A stretch of 64,000 nt of DNA. Source: Lysobacter sp. (GTDB lineage Bacteria > Pseudomonadota > Gammaproteobacteria > Xanthomonadales > Xanthomonadaceae). The position numbers were made by a program, and so were the translations under genes. The notes under the pieces are model-generated. The model ran no database searches. It was given only the letters and a program-made list of their open reading frames with translations, and was not told the DNA's origin. The first letter of the stretch is position 1. Every line of letters starts with the position of its first letter. Shown in pieces: positions 30,749 through 43,852 of this stretch. Location: NCBI GenBank assembly GCA_011526085.1, contig WYBC01000017.1, positions 62,001 to 126,000 on the forward strand. The letters run 5' to 3'.

Positions 30749-30937
30749 TGACCGCTCCGTTCTGATGTGACGACCGGGCCAAAACTACCACGACCGCCCG
30801 GGCAGGGCCCCCGCCCGCCTTTCGCGGGCCGTCGCATGACCTTCGACACCAGCCGGACGCCGGGCAGCGCGCTACAGTCGCGCGTCGCCCAGCCGGGCGC
30901 GTCTCTCCTTTCACATGCCCTCCGGGCCGGAGTCTCC

Positions 30938-33052
30938 GTGAACGCTCAACCCTCCTCGCTCCTCAAGCCGCGCGTCCTGCTGCTGTCGCTGGCCATCGCC
31001 GCGTCCCTCGCCGCCTGCAAGAAGGACGATGCCGCGCCCGCCGCGGATACCGCCGCCAAGGCCGCGGCGCCTGCACTGACCCTCGACGAAAGCAAGCTGC
31101 CGCCGTTCAACCAGTTCAAGGCCGCCGACCTCGACACCACCAAGAACGCCTGTGCCGACTTTGCCGGCTTCGTCAACGGCAAGTGGCTCGCCGCCAATGC
31201 CATTCCGGGCGATCGCACCTCGTGGGGCGCGTTCGAGATGCTGGACGAGCGTTCGACTTCGGTGCAGCGCCAGCTGGCCGAGCAGGCCGCCGCGATGTCC
31301 GGCGCCAAGGGCGTGGAGAAGATCGTCGGCGACATCTGGGCCACCGGCATGGACGAGGCGAAGATCAACGCCCAGGGGATCGCCCCGCTCAAGAGCCGCC
31401 TCGACGCCATCGACGCGCTGACCGACGGCGCCTCGGTCGCCGAGCATCTGCGCAAGAGCTTCGCCAAGGGCGAGCAGGCCGTCTTCGGCTTCGGCCCGAG
31501 CGCCGACTTCAAGGATTCGTCGATGAACATCGCCTATGTCGCCCAGGCCGGCCTCGGCCTGCCCGACAAGGCCTACTACTTCGACGCCGACAAGAAGGAA
31601 AAGCTTGCCGCCTACGAACAGCACATCGCCAAGGTGCTGGAACTGTCCGGCGTCGCCGCGGCCGACGCCGCGAAGCAGGCAAAGGACGTGGTCGCGTTCG
31701 AGACCCGCCTGGCCAAGGCTTCGAAGTCCAGCGAAGAACTGGCCCGCGACGTGTCGCTGTACTACAACCCGGTGTCGGTGGCGGACGCCGACAAGAAGAC
31801 CCCGAATTTCCCGTGGAGCAAGTTCTTCGAATCGCAGGGCATCGCCGCGCCGAAGATGTTCTCGATGGCGATCCCGGAATTCCACGCCGAGTTCGACCGG
31901 ATGCTGGCCGACACCCCGGTCGAGCACTGGAAGAGCTACCTGCGCTTCCACACCGTCGACGGCGCCTCGCCGTTCCTCGGCGACGCCTTCGCCGACGAGA
32001 ACTTCAACTTCTACCGCAAGACCATGCGCGGGCAGAAGGAACAGCAGCCGCGCTGGAAGCGCGTGCTCGACACCATCGAGGGCCAGACCGGCGAGGCGCT
32101 GGGCCAGATGTACGTGCAGGTGGCGTTCCCGCCGGAATCGAAGGCGCGCATGGAGGAACTGGTGAAGAACCTCAGCGCGGCGCTGAAAGGCCGGCTGGAG
32201 AATCTCGCGTGGATGAGCCCGGAGACCAAGCAGAAGGCGATGGACAAGTGGGCCACGTTCACGCCGAAGATCGGTTACCCGGACAAGTGGCGCGACTGGA
32301 CCGGGCTGGACACCTCGCGCGGCAGCTACATCGAGAACGTGCTGGCCGCCAACGAGTTCAACTACAAGTGGAACCTCGGCAAGATCGGCAAGCCGGTCGA
32401 CAAGACCGAATGGGGCATGAGTCCGCAGACGGTGAACGCCTACTACAACCCGCAGTTGAACGAGATCGTGTTCCCGGCCGCGATCCTGCAGCCGCCGTTC
32501 TTCGACGCCAAGGCCGACGACGCGCTGAACTACGGCGGCATCGGCGCGGTCATCGGCCACGAAATGATCCACGGCTACGACGACCAGGGCAGCCGCTTCG
32601 GGCCGACCGGCAACTTCGAGAACTGGTGGACCGACGCCGACATGAAGGGCTTCAAGGGCCTGACCGGCAAGCTGATCGCGCAGTTCGACGCCTACGAGGC
32701 CGCACCCGGCAAGAAGGTCAACGGCAAGCTGACGCTGGGCGAAAACATCGCCGACCTCGGCGGCCTGGCGGTGGCCTACGACGCCTTCCAGCGCGCCAGC
32801 GAAGGCAAGCCCGACGCCAAGGTCGAAGGGCTGCCGCGCGAACAGCGCTTCTTCCTCAACTGGGGCACGGTGTGGCGCCGCAACTTCACCCCGGATGAGC
32901 TGGCCGTGCGCCTGACCACCGATTCGCACGCGCCCGCCAACTTCCGCGCCGTCGGCGCACCGTCGAACCACCCGGCCTTCGCCGAAGCGTTCGCGTGCAA
33001 GGCCGGCGACCCGATGGTGCGCGACGGCGACAAGCGCATCGCGATCTGGTAA
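30938..33052 (+). CDS. M13 family (neprilysin-like) zinc metallopeptidase, lipoprotein
   Basis: A 704-residue PepO/neprilysin-type oligopeptidase with a lipoprotein signal (LLLSLAIAASLAAC), so probably in the periplasm. The zinc site is intact: H541-E-M-I-H545 in IGHEMIHGYDDQG, with the third ligand Glu602 in ENIADLGG. The substrate-binding NAYYNP motif and C-terminal family ending (GDKRIAIW) are present. GTG 30938 is the start that gives a proper signal peptide; the longer frame does not. Its paralogue at 41.8-43.9 kb has lost these zinc residues. Confidence 0.95.
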   Translation: MNAQPSSLLKPRVLLLSLAIAASLAACKKDDAAPAADTAAKAAAPALTLDESKLPPFNQFKAADLDTTKNACADFAGFVNGKWLAANAIPGDRTSWGAFEMLDERSTSVQRQLAEQAAAMSGAKGVEKIVGDIWATGMDEAKINAQGIAPLKSRLDAIDALTDGASVAEHLRKSFAKGEQAVFGFGPSADFKDSSMNIAYVAQAGLGLPDKAYYFDADKKEKLAAYEQHIAKVLELSGVAAADAAKQAKDVVAFETRLAKASKSSEELARDVSLYYNPVSVADADKKTPNFPWSKFFESQGIAAPKMFSMAIPEFHAEFDRMLADTPVEHWKSYLRFHTVDGASPFLGDAFADENFNFYRKTMRGQKEQQPRWKRVLDTIEGQTGEALGQMYVQVAFPPESKARMEELVKNLSAALKGRLENLAWMSPETKQKAMDKWATFTPKIGYPDKWRDWTGLDTSRGSYIENVLAANEFNYKWNLGKIGKPVDKTEWGMSPQTVNAYYNPQLNEIVFPAAILQPPFFDAKADDALNYGGIGAVIGHEMIHGYDDQGSRFGPTGNFENWWTDADMKGFKGLTGKLIAQFDAYEAAPGKKVNGKLTLGENIADLGGLAVAYDAFQRASEGKPDAKVEGLPREQRFFLNWGTVWRRNFTPDELAVRLTTDSHAPANFRAVGAPSNHPAFAEAFACKAGDPMVRDGDKRIAIW

Positions 33053-33120: not shown

Positions 33121-33342
33121 TTGGCATCGGCACGCTGCATCCGCTCGGCGAAACGCGCCGTATCCATCGGCATGCACGCCTTCCCCGCCCTGCCCCACGC
33201 CCGGTCATGCGATCCGCACGATCGCGCCGGCGTCGCCCCCGGTTCCCGCCGTCCTCGTCACGGAATCCGGGAGCCCCACTTGCCGTCCCGCGACCTGTCG
33301 CTGAACATGACGGCCCGCCCGCACGCCACGACAGGATCCCGG

Positions 33343-33918
33343 ATGCCCGAAATCCGCGCATACGACGCAGCACAGGAGACGCTTGGCCTCGATACGCTGC
33401 TGGTCGACATCGCCGGCGGCAGCCGCAACGCCTTCGAATCGCTGTATCGCGCCACGTCCTCGCGGTTGTTCGCGATCTGCCTGCGGGTGCTGTCCGACCG
33501 CGCCGAGGCCGAGGACGTGCTGCAGGACGTGTTCACGACGATCTGGCACAAGGCGCACCAGTTCGATCCCGGACGCGCCAGTCCGATCGCCTGGCTGGCG
33601 ATGATCGCCCGCAACAAGGCCATCGACCGGCTGCGCGCCGCGCCCGCGCGCGGCACCCTGGCCCCGATCGAGTTCGCGGACGACGTCGCCGATGCCGGCG
33701 CCACGCCGCTGCAGACCGCGGTCTCGGCCGATGAGCGCGAACGGCTGGAAGCCTGCATGCGCCAGCTCGACCCGCGCCGCCAATCGCTGATCCGCGCCGC
33801 GTTCTTCGAAGGTTCCACCTACGAAGAACTCGCGCAGCGCATCGCCTCGCCGCTGGGTTCGGTCAAGAGCTGGATCCGTCGCGGCCTGCTGCAACTGCGC
33901 GGTTGCCTCGAAGCATGA
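33343..33918 (+). CDS. ECF RNA polymerase sigma factor
   Basis: A 191-residue group 4 sigma factor. Region 2 spans about 28-97 (FESLYRATSSRLFAICLRVL, AEDVLQDVFTTIWHKA, WLAMIARNKAIDRLR) and region 4 about 132-186 (STYEELAQRIASPLGSVKSWIRRGL). The stop overlaps the anti-sigma start (ATGA), so the two are translated together. ATG 33307 would add 12 residues. Its position at the head of a lipid-modification operon resembles SigK/RskA and RpoE/ChrR systems that answer oxidative or membrane stress; the actual signal is not known from sequence. Confidence 0.93.
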   Translation: MPEIRAYDAAQETLGLDTLLVDIAGGSRNAFESLYRATSSRLFAICLRVLSDRAEAEDVLQDVFTTIWHKAHQFDPGRASPIAWLAMIARNKAIDRLRAAPARGTLAPIEFADDVADAGATPLQTAVSADERERLEACMRQLDPRRQSLIRAAFFEGSTYEELAQRIASPLGSVKSWIRRGLLQLRGCLEA

Positions 33919-34736
33919 ACATCCGCGACCTCAACGAGCAGGATTTCGAAGGCCGCGAGCCGCCGTCGGCGGACATCTTCGCCGGCGAATACGTCCTCGG
34001 CGTTCTCGACGCCGAACAGCGCCGCGAAGCGCAGACCCGCATCGCGAACGATCCGGGATTCGCCCGCCTCGTCGCCGACTGGGAACAGCGCCTGGCGCCG
34101 CTGCTGGCCGAGTTCGAAGGTGTCGACATCCCGCCGCACCTGTGGCCGCGCATCCGCAGTCGCCTCGGTTGGCCGGCGATCGAAACCGGCAGGTCCGCCG
34201 ACGCCGCCACCGCGAAGTCCGGGCTGTGGCAGAGCGCCGGTTTCTGGCGCGCGGCCACCGGCCTGGCCGCGGCCGCCGCGATCGCCGCGGTGGCCATCGG
34301 TCCGCTGGGCCTGTTCCGCGAGGACATCGCGACGCCGGTCGGCCCCGGCCCGATCGCGGTCGAACCGCCACCGCCGCCGGTCGAAGATCCCGATGCGCCG
34401 AAGCCGGTCAGCACGCTGCTTCGCGACGACGGCAAGCCCGGCTGGCTGGCGTCGGTCGATGCGAAGGCCGGCACCGTGCTGATGGTGCCGGTGCCCGCCG
34501 GCGCCGACGCCGAAGGCCGCGTGCCCGAACTGTGGCTGATTCCGCCGGGCGAAACGCCGAAGTCGCTGGGTCTGGTCTCGATCGATCGTTCGCATACGGT
34601 CAAGGTGCCCGACGCGCTGCGCGACGCGTTGGCGAAGGGCGCGCTGCTGGCGATCACGCTGGAACCGCCGGGCGGCGCGCCGCAGGGCGTGGCCACGGGT
34701 CCGATCATCGCCAAGGGCGATATCGTCACGCTGTGA
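33915..34736 (+). CDS. RskA-type anti-sigma factor
   Basis: A 273-residue membrane anti-sigma factor. The N-terminal 100 residues are the cytoplasmic sigma-binding part (DIFAGEYVLGVLDAEQRREAQ), one membrane helix spans about 110-134 (AAAAIAAVAIGPLGLF), and the periplasmic C-terminal RskA domain contains LWLIPPGETPKSLG and LEPPGGAPQGVATGP. RskA-type factors hold the ECF sigma at the membrane until regulated proteolysis frees it. ATG 33915 overlaps the sigma stop. There is no zinc-binding cysteine/histidine cluster, so it differs from ChrR. Confidence 0.92.
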   Translation: MNIRDLNEQDFEGREPPSADIFAGEYVLGVLDAEQRREAQTRIANDPGFARLVADWEQRLAPLLAEFEGVDIPPHLWPRIRSRLGWPAIETGRSADAATAKSGLWQSAGFWRAATGLAAAAAIAAVAIGPLGLFREDIATPVGPGPIAVEPPPPPVEDPDAPKPVSTLLRDDGKPGWLASVDAKAGTVLMVPVPAGADAEGRVPELWLIPPGETPKSLGLVSIDRSHTVKVPDALRDALAKGALLAITLEPPGGAPQGVATGPIIAKGDIVTL

Positions 34737-34787
34737 TGCGGGCAACGTCGCGAAGCCATCGGGGCAACGCGACGATCTGATTCCAGA

Positions 34788-34823
34788 CGCGGAGACGGTG
34801 CATCCGAACGCACCGCCTCCGCG
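34788..34823 (+). promoter_or_regulatory. Strong hairpin between anti-sigma and desaturase genes
   Basis: CGCGGAG-a-CGGTGC, loop of eight bases, then GCACCG-c-CTCCGCG forms a 13-bp stem with one A-C mismatch, 51 bases after the anti-sigma stop and 29 before the desaturase start. No T tract follows. It could attenuate transcription, stabilise the downstream mRNA after processing, or partly insulate the regulator genes from the lipid operon. Confidence 0.55.
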
Positions 34824-34852
34824 TAGAGGTACCGACAGCCAAGGAATTGCGC

Positions 34853-35851
34853 ATGCCGGTACACGCTCCGCCCACCTCCGATCCGACCGTCGCACCGCGA
34901 CGCCCCCCCGCCTTGCGTCGCGGCATCGCCGCCGTCGCCCGCTGGTTCGATACCGGCACCACGGCGAACGAATCCACCGCCGAAGGCGACCGCATCGACT
35001 GGTTGCGCGCGATTCCTTTCCTCGGCATGCATCTGGCCTGCCTGGCGGTGTTCCAGGTCGGCGTGTCGTGGATCGCGGTCGCGGTCGCGGCCGCGCTCTA
35101 CGCGGTGCGGATGTTCGCGATCACCGGCTTCTACCACCGCTATTTCTCGCATCGCACCTTCCGCACCTCGCGCGCGGTGCAGTTCGTGTTCGCGCTGATC
35201 GGCGCGTCCTGCGTGCAGCGCGGGCCGCTGTGGTGGGCGGCGCATCATCGCAACCATCATCGTCACTCCGACACCGCGCAGGACGTGCATTCGCCGGTGG
35301 TCCACGGGTTCTGGCGCAGCCACGTCGGCTGGTTCCTCACCCGCCACGGCTTCCGCACCGACTGGGAACGCGTCCGCGATCTCGCCCGCTATCCGGAGCT
35401 GCGCTGGCTGGACCGCTTCGACACCCTGGTGCCGGTGCTGCTGGCGGTGGCGCTGTTCCTGCTCGGCGGCTGGCTGGAAGACGCCGCACCGCAGCTCGGC
35501 ACCGACGCCTGGCAGATGCTGGTCTGGGGATTCTTCGTCTCCACCGTCGCGCTGTTCCACGCCACCGTGACCATCAACTCGCTGGCGCACCGCTTCGGCA
35601 AGCGCCGTTTCGACACCCGCGACGACAGCCGCAACAACCTGTGGCTGGCGCTGCTGACCTTCGGCGAAGGCTGGCACAACAACCATCACTTCTTCCCGGG
35701 CTCGGCGCGACAGGGCTTCCGCTGGTGGGAGATCGACCTGACCTACTACGGTCTGCGCACGATGGCGCTGCTGCGCCTCGTCCACGATCTCAAACCGGTG
35801 CCGGCCTGGGTGGCCGCCAGGGCGCGCGGCGCGCGGACGGGAGCGGCCTGA
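34853..35851 (+). CDS. Membrane fatty-acid desaturase (acyl-CoA delta-9 type)
   Basis: A 332-residue integral membrane di-iron desaturase. The three histidine boxes are HRYFSH (95-100), HHRNHH (131-136) and HNNHH (275-279, in GEGWHNNHHFF). Four hydrophobic segments flank them (LACLAVFQVGVSWIAVAVAAALY; VPVLLAVALFLLGGW). Such enzymes insert a cis double bond into membrane or acyl-CoA-linked chains using oxygen. Its stop overlaps the next start (TGATG), making it the first gene of the coupled lipid operon. Confidence 0.93.
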   Translation: MPVHAPPTSDPTVAPRRPPALRRGIAAVARWFDTGTTANESTAEGDRIDWLRAIPFLGMHLACLAVFQVGVSWIAVAVAAALYAVRMFAITGFYHRYFSHRTFRTSRAVQFVFALIGASCVQRGPLWWAAHHRNHHRHSDTAQDVHSPVVHGFWRSHVGWFLTRHGFRTDWERVRDLARYPELRWLDRFDTLVPVLLAVALFLLGGWLEDAAPQLGTDAWQMLVWGFFVSTVALFHATVTINSLAHRFGKRRFDTRDDSRNNLWLALLTFGEGWHNNHHFFPGSARQGFRWWEIDLTYYGLRTMALLRLVHDLKPVPAWVAARARGARTGAA

Positions 35852-37167
35852 TGCGCATCGCCGTCATCGGTTCCGGCATCGCCGGCCTCGCCTCCGCCTG
35901 GCTGCTCTCGAAAGACCCGCGCCACGAGGTCGTGTTGTTCGAGGCCAACGATTATCTCGGCGGCCACACCCATACCCACGACATCGCGCTGCATGGCAGG
36001 CGATATGCGGTCGACAGCGGTTTCATCGTCCACAACCCGGCGCACTACCCGCTGCTGACCGCGCTGTTCGACGAACTCGGCGTCGCCTCGCAGCCGACGA
36101 CCATGAGTTTCTCGGTACGCAACGAGGCCTCGGGACTCGAGTACAACGCGACCGATCTCAACGGGCTGTTCTGCCAGCGCCGCAATCTGGTGTCGCCGCG
36201 CTTCTGGCGCATGCTGCGCGACCTGTTCCGCTTCTATCGCGAAGCGCCCGCGCTGCTCGACCAGCCCGGCGAGGGGCCCACGCTCGGCGAATATCTCCAC
36301 CGCAACGGCTACGGCGCGATGTTCCGCGACGATCACCTGCTGCCGATGGCCTCGGCGCTGTGGTCGTCGCCCTCGACCCGGATCCTGTCGTTCCCGGCGA
36401 AATATCTCGTGCAGTTCATGGCCAACCACCAGATGCTGCAGGTCAGCGACCGCCCGCAGTGGCGCGTGGTGCGCGGTGGATCGAACGCCTACGTCCGCGC
36501 CCTGCGCGCACGCTGGCGCGTGCAGGCGCGCCTGTCGACACCGGTGTCGATGGTGCTGCGCGACGACGACGGCGTCACCGTGTTCACCGATACCGATGCC
36601 GGCAGCGGCGCCGAACGCTTCCATTGGCTGGTACTGGCCTGCCACAGCGATCAGGCGCTGCGTCTGCTCGGCGACGCCACCGAGCGCGAGCGCTCGGTGC
36701 TGGGCGCGATGCCCTACCAGGCCAACGACACCGTGCTGCACACCGATGCACGCCTGCTGCCGCGCCGGCGCAGGGCGTGGGCGGCGTGGAACGCGCTGGT
36801 GCCGCGCGATCCGGGCGATGTCTGCACCGTCAGCTATTGCATGAACCTGCTGCAGGGCATCGAATCGCCCGAGCCCTTCGTGGTCACGCTCAATCGTACC
36901 GACGCCATCGATCCGGCGAAGATCCTGCGCCGCATGCGCTATCACCATCCGGTCTACAGCCACGCTTCGGTCGCCGCGCAACAGCGCAAGGCCGAGATCC
37001 AGGGCCAGCGCCGCACATGGTTCGCCGGCGCGTACTGGGGCTGGGGTTTCCACGAGGACGGCATGCGCAGCGCGGTCGAGGTCGCGGCATCGATGGGCGT
37101 CGCGTGGTCGCCGCGCAGGCACGACGAACATGCCGATGTCGCGACGCCGGAACCGGTCGCCGCATGA
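35851..37167 (+). CDS. NAD(P)/FAD-dependent oxidoreductase (amine-oxidase fold)
   Basis: A 438-residue flavoprotein with an N-terminal dinucleotide-binding motif (IAVIGSGIAGLASAWLL) and FEANDYLGGHTHT, typical of the amine oxidase/phytoene desaturase fold found in bacterial DUF1365-Cfa operons. The C-terminal FAD motif region is WFAGAYWGWGFHEDGMRSAVE. Its substrate is not established; in this setting a role in the oxidation of a modified acyl chain is plausible. It starts one base inside the desaturase stop and overlaps the next start (ATGA). Confidence 0.85.
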   Translation: MRIAVIGSGIAGLASAWLLSKDPRHEVVLFEANDYLGGHTHTHDIALHGRRYAVDSGFIVHNPAHYPLLTALFDELGVASQPTTMSFSVRNEASGLEYNATDLNGLFCQRRNLVSPRFWRMLRDLFRFYREAPALLDQPGEGPTLGEYLHRNGYGAMFRDDHLLPMASALWSSPSTRILSFPAKYLVQFMANHQMLQVSDRPQWRVVRGGSNAYVRALRARWRVQARLSTPVSMVLRDDDGVTVFTDTDAGSGAERFHWLVLACHSDQALRLLGDATERERSVLGAMPYQANDTVLHTDARLLPRRRRAWAAWNALVPRDPGDVCTVSYCMNLLQGIESPEPFVVTLNRTDAIDPAKILRRMRYHHPVYSHASVAAQQRKAEIQGQRRTWFAGAYWGWGFHEDGMRSAVEVAASMGVAWSPRRHDEHADVATPEPVAA

Positions 37168-37958
37168 ACGACGTGCTCGCCAGCGCCGTGTACGAAGGCA
37201 CGGTCCGGCATCGCCGGCACCTGCCGCATCCGCATGCGTTCCGCTACCGGATGGCGCAGCTGTACCTGGATCTCGACGAAATCGACCAGGTGTTCGACCG
37301 CTCCCGATTGTGGTCGGCGGACCGCCGCAATCTCGCCGAATTCCGCCGCGGCGATTATCTCGGGGACCCCGCCGTGCCGCTCGCCGAAGCGGTGCGCGCG
37401 CGCGCCGCCGAAGCGCTCGGCCGGCGCCCGCAGGGCGCGATCCGGCTGCTGACGCATCCGCGCTATTTCGGCTTCGTCTTCAATCCGGTGAGTTTCTACT
37501 ACTGCCACGCCGCCGACGGCGCGCTCGACTGCATCGTCGCCGAGATCACCAACACGCCATGGAAGGAACGCCACGCCTACGTGCTGCCGGTCGACGGCGC
37601 CGACGCGCACGGCCGCGCGCTGCGCTGGTCGTTCCCGAAGCGGTTCCACGTGTCGCCGTTCATGGCGATGGACCGCGACTACGACTGGCGCTTCACCGCG
37701 CCGGGCGCGGACCTGCATGTCCACATGGACGTGCTGCGCGACGGCGCGCGCGAATTCGACGCCACCCTGCATCTGCGGCGCCGCGCGCTGGATGCCGCCT
37801 CGCTGCGGCGGCTGCTGTGGCGCTATCCGCTGATGACCGCGCAGGTGGTCGGCGCGATCCACTGGCAGGCGCTGCGGCTGTGGCTCAAGCGCAACCCGGT
37901 GCACGACCACCCGACCCGGGCACGAACGCCTTCCCTTCCCCTCCGAGGTTCACGATGA
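37164..37958 (+). CDS. DUF1365 family protein
   Basis: A 264-residue member of the DUF1365 family. Diagnostic segments are YEGTVRHRRHLPHPHAFRYR at the start, LLTHPRYFGFVFNPVSFYY, and KRFHVSPFMAMD. The family sits next to cyclopropane synthase-like genes in many proteobacteria. Its biochemical function is unknown to me; a lipid-related role is inferred. The C-terminal part is basic, with one hydrophobic stretch (PLMTAQVVGAIHWQALRLWL) that may touch the membrane. Both ends overlap neighbours by four bases. Confidence 0.93.
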   Translation: MNDVLASAVYEGTVRHRRHLPHPHAFRYRMAQLYLDLDEIDQVFDRSRLWSADRRNLAEFRRGDYLGDPAVPLAEAVRARAAEALGRRPQGAIRLLTHPRYFGFVFNPVSFYYCHAADGALDCIVAEITNTPWKERHAYVLPVDGADAHGRALRWSFPKRFHVSPFMAMDRDYDWRFTAPGADLHVHMDVLRDGAREFDATLHLRRRALDAASLRRLLWRYPLMTAQVVGAIHWQALRLWLKRNPVHDHPTRARTPSLPLRGSR

Positions 37959-39298
37959 CCGAACTCGCCAACCGCATCGCCAACCGTATCGACGCCCCCT
38001 CCGTCGACGCCGTGCATGCCGCCGACTACGGCGCGCTCGATCGTTTCCTGCGCAAACGGCTGATCGCGCGGATGTCGCGGTTGCGCCATGGACGACTGAC
38101 GCTGCACGACGCGCTGGGCACGCTCGAGCTCGGCGAGCCCGCGCACGTCGAGACCGATCTGTGCATCCGCATCGAAGTCGATTCGCCCGGCTTCTACCGC
38201 GCGGTCGCCGCCAACGGCAGCGTCGGCGCCGGCGAAGCCTGGATGGACGCGCAGTGGCGCTGCGACGACCTCGTGGGCCTGGTGCGGCTGCTGGTGCGCA
38301 ACCGCGACCTGCTCGACGCCATGGAAACCGGTCCCGCGCGTCTGGGCGGCCTGGCGATGCAGGCCTGGCATGCCCTGCGCCGCAACACCCGCAGCGGCAG
38401 CCGCCGCAACATCGCCGCGCATTACGACCTCGGCAACGATTTCTTCCGCCTGTTCCTCTCATCGGACCTGATGTATTCCTCGGGCATCTGGGCCGGCGAG
38501 GACGACACCCTCGAAGCCGCCTCCACCCGCAAGCTCGATCGCATCTGCCGCAAGCTGGACCTGAAGCCCGGCGATCACGTGCTGGAGATCGGCACCGGCT
38601 GGGGCGGCTTCGCCGTGCACGCGGCCCGCCATTACGGCTGCCGCGTCACCACCACCACGATCTCGAAGGAACAGCACGCGCTCGCCGCGCAGCGGGTGGC
38701 GGAAGCGGGCCTGGAAGATCGGGTCGTGCTGCTGTTGCAGGACTATCGCGACCTCACCGGCACTTACGACAAACTGGTCTCGATCGAGATGATCGAGGCG
38801 ATCGGCGCGCAGTATCTCGACACCTATTTCGCGAAGATCGGCGCGCTGCTCAAGCCCGACGGGCTGGCGCTGGTTCAGGCGATCACCATCGAAGACCATC
38901 GCTACGCACAGGCGCTGCGCTCGGTCGATTTCATCAAGCGCCACGTGTTCCCGGGCAGCTTCATTCCGTCGGTCGCGGCGATGGTCGCGGCCAAGGGCCG
39001 CGCCAGCGATCTGGCCCTGATCCAGATGGAGGATTTCGGACTGTCCTACGCGCGCACGCTCGAAGCCTGGCGCCGACGCTTCCTCGGCGCGCTGCAGGAA
39101 GTACGTGCGCAGGGCTTCGACGACCGTTTCATCGCGATGTGGGAGTTCTATCTGGCGTATTGCGAAGGCGGATTCCGCGAACGTTCGATCGGCGTGGCGC
39201 AACTGCTGATGGCCCGGCCCGGTCATCGCCGGCCGGCGCCGATGCCCGATCTGCCGACGCATGTGCACGCGCATCGACCGGACGAACTGCAGGCATGA
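37955..39298 (+). CDS. Cyclopropane-fatty-acyl-phospholipid synthase family methyltransferase
   Basis: A 447-residue SAM-dependent methyltransferase that acts on unsaturated acyl chains of membrane phospholipids. The N-terminal domain (1-145) is the lipid-binding part. The class I catalytic domain has SAM motif VLEIGTGWGGFAVHAA, then the CFA signatures NIAAHYDLGNDFFRLFL, SSDLMYSSGIW, VSIEMIEAIGAQY and VFPGSFIPSV. Most features match Cfa synthases; 11-methyl or furan-precursor chemistry cannot be excluded. The end overlaps the DUF2878 start. Confidence 0.93.
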   Translation: MTELANRIANRIDAPSVDAVHAADYGALDRFLRKRLIARMSRLRHGRLTLHDALGTLELGEPAHVETDLCIRIEVDSPGFYRAVAANGSVGAGEAWMDAQWRCDDLVGLVRLLVRNRDLLDAMETGPARLGGLAMQAWHALRRNTRSGSRRNIAAHYDLGNDFFRLFLSSDLMYSSGIWAGEDDTLEAASTRKLDRICRKLDLKPGDHVLEIGTGWGGFAVHAARHYGCRVTTTTISKEQHALAAQRVAEAGLEDRVVLLLQDYRDLTGTYDKLVSIEMIEAIGAQYLDTYFAKIGALLKPDGLALVQAITIEDHRYAQALRSVDFIKRHVFPGSFIPSVAAMVAAKGRASDLALIQMEDFGLSYARTLEAWRRRFLGALQEVRAQGFDDRFIAMWEFYLAYCEGGFRERSIGVAQLLMARPGHRRPAPMPDLPTHVHAHRPDELQA

Positions 39299-39855
39299 GT
39301 GTCTGGGCGAATCTCGTCGGTTACCAGTGCGTCTGGTTCGCCGCGGTGATCGGCGCCGGCCGCGGCCTGTGGTGGCCGGCGGCGATCGCCGCGGCGCTGT
39401 TCGCGCTGCTGCATCTCGCATTGCATCCGCAGACGCCCGCAGAGCGCGCGGCGGATTTCCGCCTGATGGCGGTGGCGATCGGCTGCGGTCTGCTGCTCGA
39501 CGGCGGTCTCGCGTCCTCCGGACTGGCCGAGTACGCCGCCGGCGATGTCGCCATTCCCGGTGTCGGCGCGCCGCTGTGGATCGTGTCGCTGTGGGCCGCG
39601 TTCTCGCTGACGCTGCGGCACTCGATGACCTTCCTGCTGCATCGCCCGCTGCTCGGCCTGGCGTTCGGCGCCATCGGCGGGCCGCTGGCGTATCTCGGCG
39701 CAGCGCGCGGCTGGCAGGCCATCGCCTTCGCCGAACCGCGCTGGATGGCGCTGGTCGCGCTGGCGATCGGTTGGGGCATCGCGATTCCGCTGCTGACGAC
39801 GCTGGCGGTGCGCTGGTCCGCACCGACGCCCCTCTCCGCACGTCCCGTCATCTGA
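39295..39855 (+). CDS. DUF2878 family membrane protein
   Basis: A 186-residue integral membrane protein with about six hydrophobic helices, e.g. LWWPAAIAAALFALLHLAL, VAIGCGLLLDGGLASSGL and LVALAIGWGIAIPLLTTLAV. The motif RHSMTFLLHRPLLGLAFGAIGGPLAY matches the DUF2878 family, split here for length. No function is known. The gene overlaps the Cfa gene by four bases, so it is part of the operon and probably acts in the same membrane-lipid step or as a scaffold. Confidence 0.85.
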   Translation: MSVWANLVGYQCVWFAAVIGAGRGLWWPAAIAAALFALLHLALHPQTPAERAADFRLMAVAIGCGLLLDGGLASSGLAEYAAGDVAIPGVGAPLWIVSLWAAFSLTLRHSMTFLLHRPLLGLAFGAIGGPLAYLGAARGWQAIAFAEPRWMALVALAIGWGIAIPLLTTLAVRWSAPTPLSARPVI

Positions 39856-39913
39856 TCTTTTGAAGCTGGTTTTTGAAGCAGGTTTTTTTAAGCATTCCCA
39901 CGAGGATTCCGCC

Positions 39914-40996
39914 ATGACCCGAACCGCCGTCCTGCCCCGCGAACTCGACCGCGACCGCCCCGGCCCGGGACTGATCGGCCTGGCCGAGCGCGGCCTGCTG
40001 CCCGATGCGCTGCTGCGCCTCGGCATCCGCCGCCAGTGCGAAGACCGCCTGCGCATCGAACTCGCCGGCGGGCCCGAGGCCCAGGCCGAACGCTTCCGCG
40101 AGCGCATCGGCCAGTTGCGCAGCAGCCCGGTGGCGATCCACACCGATGCGGCCAACGCCCAGCACTACGAACTGCCGCCGGCCTTCTTCAGGCACTGCCT
40201 CGGCAATCGCCTGAAATATTCCTGCGCCTACTACCCGCGCGGCGACGAGACCCTCGACCAGGCCGAAGAGGCGATGCTGAAGCTCTACGGCGAACGCGCC
40301 GAACTCGCCGACGGCCAGCGCATCCTCGAACTCGGCTGCGGCTGGGGTTCGCTGACGCTGTGGATGGCGGAACATTATCCCGACGCGCGGATCACCGCGG
40401 TCTCCAACTCGCGACCGCAGCGCGAGCACATCGAAACCCAGTGCCGCGTCCGCGGCTTCGGGAACGTCGAAGTGATCACCTGCGACGTGAACCGGCTGCA
40501 GTTGCCGGACGCCGGATTCGACCGCTGCGTCTCGATCGAAATGTTCGAGCACATGCGCAACTACGAACGCCTGCTCGGCGACATCGGCCGCTGGCTCACG
40601 CCCGGCGGCAAGCTCTTCGTCCACATCTTCGCCCACAAGACCCTGATGTATCCCTTCGAAACCGAAGGCGAGGACAACTGGATGGGCCGGCATTTCTTCA
40701 CCGGCGGGCTGATGCCGGCCTCCGACACGCTGCTGTGGTTCCAGCGCGCGCTGCGGATCGAACAGCGCTGGCACGTCGACGGCACGCATTACGAGAAGAC
40801 CGCGAACCACTGGCTGCGGAACCAGGACGACAACCGCGAAACGGTGATGGCGGTGCTGCGCGAGGCCTACGGCGAACACGCGGCGCTGTGGTTCCAGCGC
40901 TGGCGGATGTTCTGGATGGCCTGCGCCGAATTGTTCGGCTACGACGACGGCCGGGAATGGCTGGTCGCGCACTATCGTTTCGTCCGGCCGGAGTGA
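39914..40996 (+). CDS. Second SAM-dependent methyltransferase, CFA / coclaurine N-methyltransferase-like
   Basis: A 360-residue class I methyltransferase of the CFA/coclaurine N-methyltransferase group. It has the motifs AQHYELPPAFFRHCLGNRL, YSCAYYPRGDETLDQAE, SAM-binding ILELGCGWGSLTLWMAEHYP, and SIEMFEHMRNYERLL. Compared with the Cfa gene before it, it lacks the long N-terminal lipid-binding domain. ATG 39914 follows a GAGGATT site; the upstream extension has none. The 58-base gap before it contains a small direct repeat (GGTTTTT). A lipid substrate is the natural inference from its neighbours. Confidence 0.85.
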   Translation: MTRTAVLPRELDRDRPGPGLIGLAERGLLPDALLRLGIRRQCEDRLRIELAGGPEAQAERFRERIGQLRSSPVAIHTDAANAQHYELPPAFFRHCLGNRLKYSCAYYPRGDETLDQAEEAMLKLYGERAELADGQRILELGCGWGSLTLWMAEHYPDARITAVSNSRPQREHIETQCRVRGFGNVEVITCDVNRLQLPDAGFDRCVSIEMFEHMRNYERLLGDIGRWLTPGGKLFVHIFAHKTLMYPFETEGEDNWMGRHFFTGGLMPASDTLLWFQRALRIEQRWHVDGTHYEKTANHWLRNQDDNRETVMAVLREAYGEHAALWFQRWRMFWMACAELFGYDDGREWLVAHYRFVRPE

Positions 40997-41019
40997 GCGT
41001 GTCTTCAACACCATACGCA

Positions 41020-41090
41020 CCGGTAGAGCGGCCTTCAGGCCGCTGCTTTTCCATACCGCAAGCGCAGCGGCCTGAAGGCCGCTCTACCGG
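41020..41090. repeat. Inverted pair of REP palindromes (GTAG-headed)
   Basis: Two perfectly complementary 27-base arms (41020-41046 and 41064-41090) are separated by 17 bases. Each arm contains GTAG next to the palindrome AGCGGCCTTCAGGCCGCT. A GTAG or GTGG head plus palindrome is the hallmark of REP sequences mobilised by RAYT transposases. The transcript could fold into one long stem, and may end or protect the lipid-operon mRNA just before the lipocalin gene. Confidence 0.88.
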
Positions 41091-41168
41091 CGGCGCTGTT
41101 GGGCCGTCCGGATTTCATATGCACTCCATGAATCCTGAGAAAAAACGCATCCGTACTGGAGTCTCGTC

Positions 41169-41720
41169 GTGAAAAAGCTGATCGCTTCCGCCCTGCTGGG
41201 TCTCATCGGAGCCGCCGCCATGTTCGCCTTCAACGCCAACGGCAAAACGCCCATCCCGCCGGTCGCGAACGTGGACCTGCCGCGGTTCATGGGCGACTGG
41301 TACGTCATCGCACACATCCCGACCTTCCTGGAGAAGAACGCCTACGATGCGGTCGAGTCCTACGCGCTGCGCGACGACGGCCGGATCCAGACCACGTATC
41401 GCCAGCGCAAGGGCGGCTTCGACGCGCCGGTCGACGTGATGCGGCCGGTCGGCACGGTGCGCCCGGGCACCGGCAACGCGGTCTGGGGCATGCAGTTCGT
41501 GTGGCCGATCAAGGCCGAATACGTGATCGTGCATCTCGACGCCGACTACACCCAGACCATCATCGGCCGCAGCGCGCGCGACTACGTCTGGATCATGGCC
41601 CGCACCCCGCGCATTCCCGAGGCCGACTACGCCGCCCACGTCGAGCGCCTGAAGGCGCTGGGCTACGACACCGCGAAACTGCGGCGGGTCCCGCAACCGG
41701 AAGCCTCGCCCGCTCCCTGA
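41169..41720 (+). CDS. Lipocalin family protein (Blc-like)
   Basis: A 183-residue lipocalin with an N-terminal signal or anchor (KKLIASALLGLIGAAAMFAF). The lipocalin motif LPRFMGDWYVIAHIP matches the GxW pattern, and VDLPRF, DYVWIMARTP and the barrel strands QTTYRQRKGGF follow. No lipobox cysteine is seen, unlike E. coli Blc, so it is probably a signal-anchored or soluble periplasmic form. Bacterial lipocalins bind lysophospholipids or fatty acids. Its place after the lipid-modification operon fits transport or repair of damaged lipids. Confidence 0.9.
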   Translation: MKKLIASALLGLIGAAAMFAFNANGKTPIPPVANVDLPRFMGDWYVIAHIPTFLEKNAYDAVESYALRDDGRIQTTYRQRKGGFDAPVDVMRPVGTVRPGTGNAVWGMQFVWPIKAEYVIVHLDADYTQTIIGRSARDYVWIMARTPRIPEADYAAHVERLKALGYDTAKLRRVPQPEASPAP

Positions 41721-41827: not shown

Positions 41828-43852
41828 ATGCCGAACCTCTCCATCCTGCGCCCCTCTGCCCTCGCCTGTTGCCTGGTCCTCGCCGTCGCCGCGCCGCAGG
41901 CCGACGCCGCGAAGCGGCGCAAGCCCGCCGCGCCCGCTCCGAAGGCCGCGCCGGCGCCCAGCGCCTGCAGCGACTTCTATCTGTTCGCGAACGCGGACTG
42001 GCTGAAGGCGAATCCGGTCCCGGCGGAGGGCGGCGTCAGCGCACTCGGACAGCTCGCGGAACGGTCGCTGCAGCAGCAGCGCCAGCTGCTGGACGATGCG
42101 GCGAAATCGCCGCAGAACGGGATCCAGAAGCTGCTCGGCGATTTCTGGGCCAGCGGCCTGGACGAAGCCGCGGTGGAGCGCGACGGCGCCGCGCCGATCG
42201 CACCGCTGCTGGCGCGCATCGGCGCGATCAAGAAGGCGCAGGACGTGGCGCCGGCGATCGCCGCGCTGCACCAGGTCGGCATCCCGGTGGCCTTCAACTT
42301 CACCGCCGACCTCGATCTCAAGCAGCTCGACACGTATTTCGGCTACTTCGCGCAGGGCGGCCTCGGCCTGCCCGACGCCAGTTTCTACACCCGCACCGAC
42401 GCCGACGCGCGCGCCCTGCTCGGCCGCTACAACGGCCACGTGCAGAAGATCCTCGCCCTGTCCGGCACGCCGCAGGCGAAGCTCGCCGGCGAAGCGCAGC
42501 TGGTGATCGATCTTGAAACCCGCATCGCGCGGATGTCGAAGACCCAGGACGCGCTGCGCGGCCTGCGCGCCAACTACAACCCGGTGCCGACCAAGGATTT
42601 CGCGAAGAAATACCGCAACCTGCAGCTCGCCGCCTTCCTCAAGGCGCAGGGCGTGAACGCCGAGCAGGTGTCGATGGCCGATCCGGCCCTGTTCGCGCAG
42701 CTCGACAAACTGGCCGGCAGCCTGAAGCCGGCGCAGTGGCAGGCGTATCTGCGCTTCCACGTCGGCAACACGATGGCGCCCTATCTCAGCAAGAACTGGC
42801 GCGAGGTCGACCACGATTTCCGCGGCAAACTGCTGCGCGGCGAAGACGAACCCGCGCCGCGCTGGAAACAGGTGCTGGATGCGATCAACGCCTCGGCCGG
42901 CGCGATGGTCGCGCGCGAATACGTCGCCCGCCATCTGCCGGACGCGACCCGCGAGCGCGCGGACGCCATCGCCCGCGGCGTGAAGGAAGCGCTGGGCACC
43001 GCGATCGACCGCAACACCTGGATGGACGCGCCGACCAAGATCGAAGCGCGCGCGAAACTGGATCGCGTGAAGATCGAGATCGGCGCGCCGCGCAGCGATA
43101 TCGATTTCACCGCCCAGCCGATGGGCCGCGGCAGCTTCGGCGGCAACATCCTGATCGCATCGACCTGGCATCACCGCGAGGAGATGAAGCGCATCGGCCG
43201 CGCCAACGCCGACCGGCGCTGGGACGTGCTGCCGCAATACCCCGCGCTGGGCTACGACATCCCCCACAACCGCCTGTTCGTCAGCGCCGCGCTGCTGCAG
43301 CCGCCGGTGCTGGACATGCAGCAGCCGCTGGCCGCGCAGTACGGCAGCCTCGGTGCCGTCGTCGGCCACGAACTCAGCAGCGTGGTCGACACCAGCGGCC
43401 GCCGGGTCGACGCCAGCGAAACCCTGCGCGACTGGTGGTCGGCGGAGACCGCGACCGCCTGGAATGCGCGCACCGCGCCGCTGGCCGCGTTCTACGGCCG
43501 CCTCGCCTATCCCGGCAACGCGACGCTGAAGATCGACGGTGCCCGCGTGCTCGAACAGAGCGTCGCCGACCTCGCCGGCCTGGAACTGGCCTGGGCCGCC
43601 TACGAAAAGGCCGAGCCGCAGGCGAAGGCCGCCGATCAGCAGCCGTTCTTCCGCGGCTGGTCGCGACTGTGGACCCAGCAGTTGTCGGCGCAGGCCGCGA
43701 CCGCGCACGCCGCCGGCGCCCCCTACGCGCCCGGCCCGTGGCGCAGCAACGGCCCGCTGATGCAGCTCCCCGCGTTCGGCAGCGCCTTCGGCTGCAAGGC
43801 CGGCAGCCCGATGCTGCTGCCGGAGGCCGAGCGCATTTCGATCTGGCGCTGA
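41828..43852 (+). CDS. M13-family pseudopeptidase lacking the zinc ligands
   Basis: A 674-residue exported protein of the M13 fold (signal LACCLVLAVAAPQADA). It retains the family frame: FYLFANADWLK, FAQGGLGLPDASFY, LRANYNPV, ALLQPP and the ending AERISIW. The active site is decayed: the HExxH position reads H514-E-L-S-S518, and the segment equivalent to ENIADLGG reads QSVADLAG, with Gln577 in place of the glutamate. The NAYYNP substrate motif is absent (shortened to HNRLFVS). It is therefore probably not a peptidase and may act as a binding protein or regulator. Length and intact reading frame argue for selection. The active paralogue is at 30.9 kb. Confidence 0.88.
   Translation: MPNLSILRPSALACCLVLAVAAPQADAAKRRKPAAPAPKAAPAPSACSDFYLFANADWLKANPVPAEGGVSALGQLAERSLQQQRQLLDDAAKSPQNGIQKLLGDFWASGLDEAAVERDGAAPIAPLLARIGAIKKAQDVAPAIAALHQVGIPVAFNFTADLDLKQLDTYFGYFAQGGLGLPDASFYTRTDADARALLGRYNGHVQKILALSGTPQAKLAGEAQLVIDLETRIARMSKTQDALRGLRANYNPVPTKDFAKKYRNLQLAAFLKAQGVNAEQVSMADPALFAQLDKLAGSLKPAQWQAYLRFHVGNTMAPYLSKNWREVDHDFRGKLLRGEDEPAPRWKQVLDAINASAGAMVAREYVARHLPDATRERADAIARGVKEALGTAIDRNTWMDAPTKIEARAKLDRVKIEIGAPRSDIDFTAQPMGRGSFGGNILIASTWHHREEMKRIGRANADRRWDVLPQYPALGYDIPHNRLFVSAALLQPPVLDMQQPLAAQYGSLGAVVGHELSSVVDTSGRRVDASETLRDWWSAETATAWNARTAPLAAFYGRLAYPGNATLKIDGARVLEQSVADLAGLELAWAAYEKAEPQAKAADQQPFFRGWSRLWTQQLSAQAATAHAAGAPYAPGPWRSNGPLMQLPAFGSAFGCKAGSPMLLPEAERISIWR

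Follow-up and report, generated by a model that had tools for sequence, protein, structure and literature searches.

A sigma factor-controlled operon of Lysobacter sp. that probably encodes a dimethyl-furan fatty acid pathway

Introduction

Which lipid is made by an operon in which an extracytoplasmic function (ECF) sigma factor and its anti-sigma factor precede a desaturase, an FAD oxidoreductase, a DUF1365 protein, two methyltransferases of the cyclopropane fatty acid (CFA) synthase family, a DUF2878 protein and a lipocalin? The question is raised by a locus of Lysobacter sp. in a 64,000-nucleotide (nt) stretch of assembly GCA_011526085.1 (contig WYBC01000017.1, positions 62,001 to 126,000, forward strand), referred to as the window in the rest of the paper. 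The initial annotation of this DNA proposed stress-controlled modification of membrane acyl chains, a proposal that our analysis supports, and offered a cyclopropane, methyl-branched or furan-type product. Comparison with characterized systems leads us to conclude that the operon is probably stress-induced and probably directs the conversion of existing membrane phospholipids to forms with dimethyl-furan fatty acids, by reactions whose nature and order we infer from Rhodobacter and Rhodopseudomonas.

Work on R. sphaeroides and R. palustris by Lemke et al. 2020 (PMC7380195) proved the functions of four enzymes. Three of them, UfaM, UfaD and the DUF1365 protein UfaO, convert phospholipid acyl chains to a monomethyl-furan fatty acid, from which R. 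palustris obtains the dimethyl form by means of a fourth, the methyltransferase FufM (RPA0924). Its genes ufaM-ufaO-ufaD (RPA2569-2571) and fufM code for the same four enzyme families as the window. Whereas fufM lies at another locus in R. palustris, the window carries all four genes in one operon, together with genes for a desaturase, a DUF2878 protein and a lipocalin and without a DUF1295 gene. The enzymes belong to a pathway discovered only recently; what is new here is the single operon that unites the four with a desaturase and places them under an RskA-type switch.

Results

Organization of the operon

A profile search of the window proteins confirmed nine genes in the order initially annotated, all on the + strand. 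Every product scores over the Pfam cut-off for its family: Sigma70_r2/r4, RskA_C, FA_desaturase, Amino_oxidase/NAD_binding_8, DUF1365, CMAS, DUF2878, CMAS with generic methyltransferase models, and Lipocalin_2. The features are as follows.

33136..33162, + strand: predicted ECF promoter before the sigma gene, TGCATCCG-N15-CGTA (motif scan)
33307..33918 (start 33307 or 33343), + strand: ECF sigma factor of a SigK-like clade linked to RskA (Pfam, NCBIfam, tree)
33915..34736, + strand: RskA-type membrane anti-sigma factor (PF10099, E 1.6e-19; reading frame checked)
34799..34825, + strand: predicted ECF promoter before the desaturase, at the start of the lipid genes, TGCATCCG-N15-CGTA (motif scan)
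34853..35851, + strand: membrane fatty acid desaturase that probably introduces the cis double bond (PF00487, E 1.6e-23)
35851..37167, + strand: UfaD-like FAD oxidoreductase, putatively for the second desaturation of the methylated chain (Pfam, neighbours)
37164..37958, + strand: UfaO-like DUF1365 protein which, by analogy with UfaO, would insert O2 and close the furan ring (PF07103, E 1.4e-87)
37955..39298, + strand: UfaM-like methyltransferase, putatively for the first C-methylation (CMAS, E 2.4e-81; active-site columns)
39295..39855, + strand: DUF2878 membrane protein (PF11086, E 9.1e-36)
39914..40996, + strand: FufM-like (coclaurine-N-methyltransferase-type) methyltransferase, putatively for the second C-methylation, on the furan (homology, neighbours)
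41169..41720, + strand: Blc-type lipocalin, downstream (PF08212, E 3.4e-41)

The transcription unit reaches upstream as far as the first predicted promoter. Most junctions had been described as four-base overlaps; inspection of start and stop codons retained this for four of the eight (ATGA at sigma/anti-sigma, UfaD/UfaO, UfaO/UfaM and UfaM/DUF2878), while the desaturase/UfaD junction is a one-base overlap and the other three are gaps of 116 nt (anti-sigma to desaturase, with its own predicted promoter inside), 58 nt (DUF2878 to second methyltransferase) and 172 nt (second methyltransferase to lipocalin). Both the anti-sigma gene (33915) and the desaturase gene (34853) start with ATG. The 172-nt gap contains, at 41020-41090, an inverted repeat with perfectly matching 27-nt arms, a loop of 17 nt and no T-run, of which no second copy was found in the window with up to 3 mismatches allowed; this hairpin possibly uncouples the lipocalin partly from the operon.

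The first methyltransferase has the active site of UfaM

We aligned the protein initially annotated as Cfa (37955-39298) with solved CFA synthases and counted active-site columns over the 82 of 84 UfaM rows retained by length. Among these columns is that of Cys139, which we take to be a ligand in CFA synthase. In the E. coli enzyme, the bicarbonate base is reported to be bound by Glu239, His266 and Tyr317 (PMC11387697). The window protein retains the two flanking ligands as Glu281 and Tyr365, has Gln308 in place of His266 and has Ser176 at the position of Cys139. Glutamine occupies the His266 position in all 82 UfaM copies of the fetched clusters, window included, and in all four UfaMs that adjoin DUF1365 in Rhodopseudomonas-type genomes (genera g245 and g263). 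The same 82 copies and four reference UfaMs all have Ala at the His240 position, and the Cys139 position is Ser or Ala in 80 of the 82 and Ser in 4/4. With Ser, Ala and Gln at the three positions, the window protein thus carries the signature of the four reference rows, whereas Cys, His and His are retained in 5/5 other proteins of the CFA family, encoded in genus g245 and in the related genome G399. Because the His266 bicarbonate ligand is Gln in 82/82 copies, the protein is probably not a cyclopropane synthase, and we rejected that assignment. The simplest chemical reading is that, lacking the bicarbonate base, the methylated cation would lose its proton elsewhere and give a branched alkene, the known UfaM product. 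Of the three products first offered, the furan type is favoured and cyclopropane is not.

A query with UfaM recovered only two CFA-family genes from the whole genome (~97% complete), namely the UfaM-like gene and that of the second methyltransferase. Both products carry a CMAS domain, as they would if both were CFA synthases and the remaining genes coded for accessory redox proteins, which is how a cluster of the same order in S. maltophilia was published (PMC11832516). The replacement of His266 and His240 in 82/82 UfaM copies opposes such a cyclopropane operon, as do the closer relationship of the second methyltransferase to coclaurine N-methyltransferase than to CFA synthase (see below) and the fact that no job would be left for the UfaD and UfaO genes. 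E. coli, for its part, has its own Cfa. Halomonas UfaM expressed in E. coli was reported to give a methyl-alkene, yet cyclic fatty acids were detected too (PMC12089945). Taken together, we regard cyclopropane synthesis by this operon as very improbable.

UfaD-like, UfaO-like and DUF2878 proteins

The FAD oxidoreductase has NAD_binding_8 and Amino_oxidase domains above cut-off and its gene overlaps that of the DUF1365 protein, which suggests a UfaD-like enzyme. The DUF1365 protein itself scores 293.6 bits with the model of this domain, which UfaO also has, against a cut-off of 25. Its predicted model (predicted local distance difference test, pLDDT, 92.6) looks like a calycin-type barrel; VIA-align against PDB returned only rows with Z < 8 (OlmO spirocyclase 7.2, Ycf58 7.0, nitrobindin-type 6.0-6.6), none of them decisive, and Foldseek gave no match at E 0.001. 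These comparisons give no ground for reading haem or another cofactor into the protein. The model of the DUF2878 protein consists of six helices (pLDDT 94.5), and its best Foldseek match, a mycobacterial Insig homologue (E 0.7), is not significant. The initial annotation had held that the second methyltransferase and the DUF proteins lack established roles. This is outdated for DUF1365, a family that includes UfaO, and for the FufM-like methyltransferase, their counterparts having been described in 2020 like that of the UfaD-like FAD protein (PMC7380195), and it still applies to DUF2878, whose part in the pathway, like those of the desaturase and the lipocalin, is putative.

The second methyltransferase resembles FufM

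The second METHYLTRANSFERASE (39914..40996) has coclaurine N-methyltransferase as its best PDB match (E 1e-70), followed by pavine N-methyltransferase (3e-61), with CFA synthase far behind (E 1.5e-27). We presume that plant LIME1 (AT4G33110) is a coclaurine-N-methyltransferase relative. FufM itself is reported to be 37.87% identical to AT4G33110/LIME1 (PMC10940516). Six phototroph genomes of genus g245 each code for one such protein, 45-50% identical to that of the window, and each also has a UfaM-type match near DUF1365; a third full CFA-family match is present in three of the six, and a fourth genome (G454) has a weak one (E 1.4e-10). Identity of the window protein to those of Rhodopseudomonas sp. 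AAP120, Rhodopseudomonas sp. B29 and a strain named R. palustris JSC-3b ranges from 46.7 to 50.2%, the highest value being that for AAP120, and in all three the gene adjoins DUF1295. In Rhodopseudomonas-type genomes, UfaM and the third CFA-family protein are separable by their active-site signature. RPA0924 and RPA3082 are reported to be 26% and 38% identical to R. sphaeroides UfaM, respectively (PMC7380195); local alignment of their counterparts with Rhodopseudomonas-type UfaM gave 28.8-32.2% and 31.2-34.9%, in the same direction but hardly separated. By elimination, the sequences point to RPA0924 (FufM) as the Rhodopseudomonas orthologue of the second methyltransferase. RPA0923 adjoins RPA0924 by number and may therefore code for the DUF1295 protein found beside FufM in the congeners.

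The distribution of the gene is consistent with this assignment. Across 299 Pseudomonadota genomes, the second methyltransferase (E 1e-40) occurs in 26, DUF1365 in 130 and both in 25; DUF1365, our marker of Ufa genomes, is thus present in 25/26 genomes with the methyltransferase compared to 105/273 without it (Fisher 3.5e-9, kinship ignored), so that the FufM-type enzyme is confined, except in G092, to a subset of Ufa genomes. Among 59 relatives, the methyltransferase was found in 40, DUF1365 in 38 and both in 37. Related regions were compared from 38 of 41 genomes of the same order, leaving out the fragmented assemblies G005, G006 and G023, and neighbours were tallied within 8 kb over 37 regions, excluding L223, where the methyltransferase stands alone and the ufa genes of that genome are in L185. 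A DUF1365 gene is found no more than 8 kb from that of the second methyltransferase in 36/37 regions (36/38 counting L223), indicating that the grouping is not due to chance.

These figures also bear on a more limited reading, namely that the operon makes only the monomethyl furan and the second methyltransferase acts on another lipid or on a small amine. Its nearest solved relatives do methylate an alkaloid nitrogen, and in Rhodopseudomonas/Bradyrhizobium loci L086-L096 the FufM-type gene is away from the ufa genes. Against this stand the 25/26 co-occurrence with DUF1365, the proximity in 36/38 related regions and the orthology with FufM reached by elimination, which make the monomethyl reading improbable.

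Conservation of the cluster and the missing DUF1295 gene

Within 8 kb of the second methyltransferase, the same 37 regions contain UfaM (36 regions), UfaD (34), DUF2878 (34), the desaturase (32), DUF1295 (26), a lipocalin (17) and a sigma gene (16). Named loci were the best 80 of at least 410 matches, mostly alpha-proteobacterial; these 80 include DUF1365 in 56, DUF1295 in 61, DUF2177 in 52 and a sigma gene in 39, and a desaturase near the FufM-type gene in none. On two plasmids typed as conjugative, from Burkholderia anthina and Rhizobium tropici (L033 and L036), the ufa/fufM cluster is accompanied by the sigma pair, and the module may therefore move.

Iso-rich fatty acids are typical of the bacterial family to which Lysobacter belongs. 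The operon could accordingly make a related acyl product, for example a furan or a methyl-diene on iso-branched acids, with the position set by its own desaturase, a reading that overlaps with the dimethyl-furan pathway. In its favour, the desaturase is near in 32/37 related regions and heads the Acinetobacter cluster, compared to 0 of the 80 best named loci; the known UfaD, by contrast, is described as acting on a methylated straight 18-carbon chain (PMC7380195). We consider such a product unlikely, if less so than the two preceding alternatives.

In the genus of the window, DUF1295 is within the operon of one relative (L206) and absent from it in the window and five others. The genome does have a DUF1295 copy, on contig C26 behind a sigma motif; it belongs to a DUF1295 subfamily other than that of the operon copies of close relatives, and we therefore rejected it as the missing gene moved elsewhere. 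A sequence comparison of DUF1295 with PDB gave no match at E 0.01. At the position that DUF1295 occupies in many relatives, the window has the 58-nt gap (39856-39913), which is T-rich and contains an apparent imperfect direct repeat, seen by eye and absent from the computed repeat list; this gap is perhaps a deletion scar. M13-family metallopeptidase genes are located on both flanks of the operon (30854-33052 and 41831-43852).

A SigK-like/RskA-type switch and its predicted promoters

The anti-sigma protein combines the RskA C-terminal domain with one hydrophobic segment (about residues 117-135, hydropathy peak 2.05), as in SigK-RskA pairs; no HxxxCxxC zinc motif was found in its sequence. Since the sigma factor scores 148.9 bits with the NCBIfam SigK model, under the cut-off of 226, we call it SigK-like and not SigK. 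Membership in ECF11/ChrR was rejected on the RskA_C domain, the lack of HxxxCxxC and the separate clade of the sigma factor. In a tree of 65 sigma factors of these loci, 22 RskA-linked and 43 ChrR-linked proteins formed two exclusive groups (support 100/99). Two of the 67 rows (L033_17412 and L186_17197, ECF genes outside the pairs) had been dropped beforehand, and the labels were assigned manually from neighbour genes and the zinc-motif check, with L124 having no recovered anti-sigma gene and L126_1081 a long branch. In Bosea locus L126, an RskA-type and a ChrR-type sigma pair surround a single ufa cluster.

As a check, the initial annotation had suggested looking for the promoter motif of the sigma factor upstream of both the sigma gene and the desaturase; a common motif was found at both, in line with the sigma/anti-sigma control that it proposed. 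These are the only two sites of TGCATCCG-N15-CGTA in the window, compared to 0.01 expected by shuffling, a figure obtained after the fact since the motif was read off the two sites by eye before testing. The strict form, TGCATCC-N16-CGTA, has the same spacing and -10 as the ECF11 promoter TGATCC-N16-CGTA and one base more in the -35; TGATCC-N16-CGTA is reported for the ChrR-type sigma factor of P. syringae (PMC5507510). The strict motif precedes the desaturase in 12/14 regions where an RskA pair is linked, that of the window among them, in 1/4 with a linked ChrR pair (relaxed form, 3/4) and in 1/16 without a linked regulator (relaxed, 3/16), and only five matches were found elsewhere in the same regions, in 1.46 million strand-bases. 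Before the sigma gene, the strict motif is present in 5/13 RskA-type regions, window included, and in 3/4 ChrR-type regions; autoregulation is thus kept less regularly than the control exerted on the lipid genes.

Within the window's own family, four genomes (G015, G020, G151 and G302) fall in the ChrR sigma group, and three of them have the desaturase motif, strict or relaxed, which indicates that one type of promoter puts the same operon under either of two sigma families: the regulator was swapped and the promoter kept. In R. capsulatus, too, a SigK/RskA-like pair has been reported instead of ChrR (PMC7074977).

The whole genome contains eight motif sites compared to none for the reversed pattern, and seven genomes of the genus contain 43 compared to none; in the more distant G036, in which the desaturase has no motif, the reversed control nearly equals the count (3 and 4), so that the motif is meaningless there. 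The eight sites lie at the sigma gene, the desaturase, a DUF2177-DUF1295 pair, a fasciclin gene (two sites) and GTP cyclohydrolase I, with one before no assigned gene and one, perhaps by chance, overlapping a hydrolase-like frame. The pair is on contig C26 (L262, 3388-4723), where DUF2177 and the non-operon-type DUF1295 stand behind the same motif. Twin motif copies 70-78 bases apart (L263, L267 and L268) precede the fasciclin gene in this genome and a fasciclin-like frame in G002; twin sites likewise occur in G003, which has neither DUF1365 nor a strong match to the second methyltransferase.

Discussion

In the pathway that we propose, the desaturase would provide a cis-monounsaturated chain, to which the UfaM-like enzyme would add a methyl group from S-adenosylmethionine, giving a methyl-branched trans alkene with no cyclopropane closure. 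The UfaD-like protein would convert this alkene to a conjugated diene, the UfaO-like protein would insert oxygen from O2 and close the furan, and the FufM-like enzyme would add the second ring methyl. The membrane-anchored RskA-type anti-sigma factor would hold the sigma factor, which, once released, would activate the promoters before its own gene and before the desaturase. The lipid may serve as a membrane antioxidant. This function is putative, as are the signal that induces the operon and the parts played by the desaturase, DUF2878 and the lipocalin.

The closest published counterpart is the S. maltophilia cluster smlt2375-smlt2367, described in the same order as desaturase, FAD oxidoreductase, hypothetical protein, CFA, two hypothetical membrane proteins, CFA and lipocalin; it differs from the window in its divergent rpoE-chrR-chrA control, an extra first gene and an extra membrane gene (PMC11832516). 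From their order, the hypothetical genes would code for DUF1365, DUF2878 and DUF1295. Loss of chrR is reported to raise its expression by 165- to 697-fold, an increase that depends on the sigma factor, and a nine-gene deletion almost undid the mutant's gains in menadione tolerance and in susceptibility to the beta-lactam CAZ (PMC11832516). These data support co-regulation of the whole set, lipocalin included. The cluster was published in 2025 as coding for CFA synthases and cyclopropane formation, and the word furan is absent from the main text (PMC11832516).

Other systems share parts of the module. Halomonas, like the window, has its ufaM, ufaD and ufaO genes side by side (PMC12089945), and the Aeromonas salmonicida cluster cfa/NTF2/SDR/FAD/DUF1365/DUF2878 has consecutive UfaM, UfaD and UfaO types and DUF2878 in common with it (PMC10012899); the published descriptions of both, as available, mention no second methyltransferase, sigma pair or desaturase. 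The R. sphaeroides sigma-E (RpoE)/ChrR singlet-oxygen regulon is reported to include furan fatty acid genes, fasciclin (RSP_1409) and folE2 (RSP_1852) (PMC7074977, PMC6852236); ChrR is there a soluble zinc protein, whereas the window has a membrane-anchored RskA type, a sigma factor of a separate clade and, in its genome, a folE of the type I family. In Chlamydomonas, a eukaryote with no operon and another regulator, singlet oxygen induces, among many genes and dependent on SAK1, CFA1, CFA2/CPLD27 (coclaurine N-methyltransferase), DUF1365, DUF2177, DUF1295 and a fasciclin-like gene (PMC4067076), and a 2021 review mentions furan modification in this alga as under study (PMC8491031). Within the open-licence literature consulted, we found no source naming this operon type a dimethyl-furan pathway or tying DUF1295 or DUF2177 to furan lipids, and the furan phrase was not found among the literature matches listed for Lysobacter, Xanthomonas or Stenotrophomonas.

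Several observations weigh against a dimethyl-furan pathway in the window. A furan product is a prediction from the genes, both here and in the relatives with this operon. The UfaM-like protein, 41.8% identical to the Rhodopseudomonas-type protein, may act on another chain, and the family of RPA0924 was fixed through congeners, not by direct comparison. Genome G092 has the second methyltransferase without DUF1365 and relative G051 has DUF1365 without the methyltransferase, and in loci L086-L096 the FufM-type gene stands apart from the ufa genes, as noted above. DUF1295, a neighbour of the FufM-type gene in 61/80 of the best named loci, is missing from the window operon. The promoter motif was first found by eye, with the relatives as its independent test. 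Finally, the S. maltophilia sigma factor is reported to have left singlet-oxygen tolerance unchanged and to have raised menadione tolerance and CAZ susceptibility (PMC11832516), which argues against singlet oxygen as the sole stress.

A broader picture can be offered only tentatively. UfaM, UfaO, UfaD, FufM, DUF1295, DUF2177 and fasciclin could belong to an ancient photo-oxidative membrane module common to proteobacteria and green algae, with a replaceable switch (zinc ChrR or membrane RskA, each with its own sigma family, acting on nearly the same promoter in related genera). Here the module would make dimethyl-furan lipids, possibly iso-branched through its own desaturase, DUF1295 and DUF2177 would be unrecognised parts of the pathway and UfaO would be a calycin-type barrel oxygenase.

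For annotation, the His266-to-Gln change provides a simple sequence test that separates UfaM of the furan pathway from cyclopropane synthases. DUF1295, DUF2177, DUF2878, the desaturase and the lipocalin are candidates for missing parts of furan lipid biology. If the dimethyl-furan assignment is correct, as we think probable, it would tell which lipid to look for in a group of bacteria from soil, plants and the clinic whose operon has been interpreted in print as making cyclopropanes.

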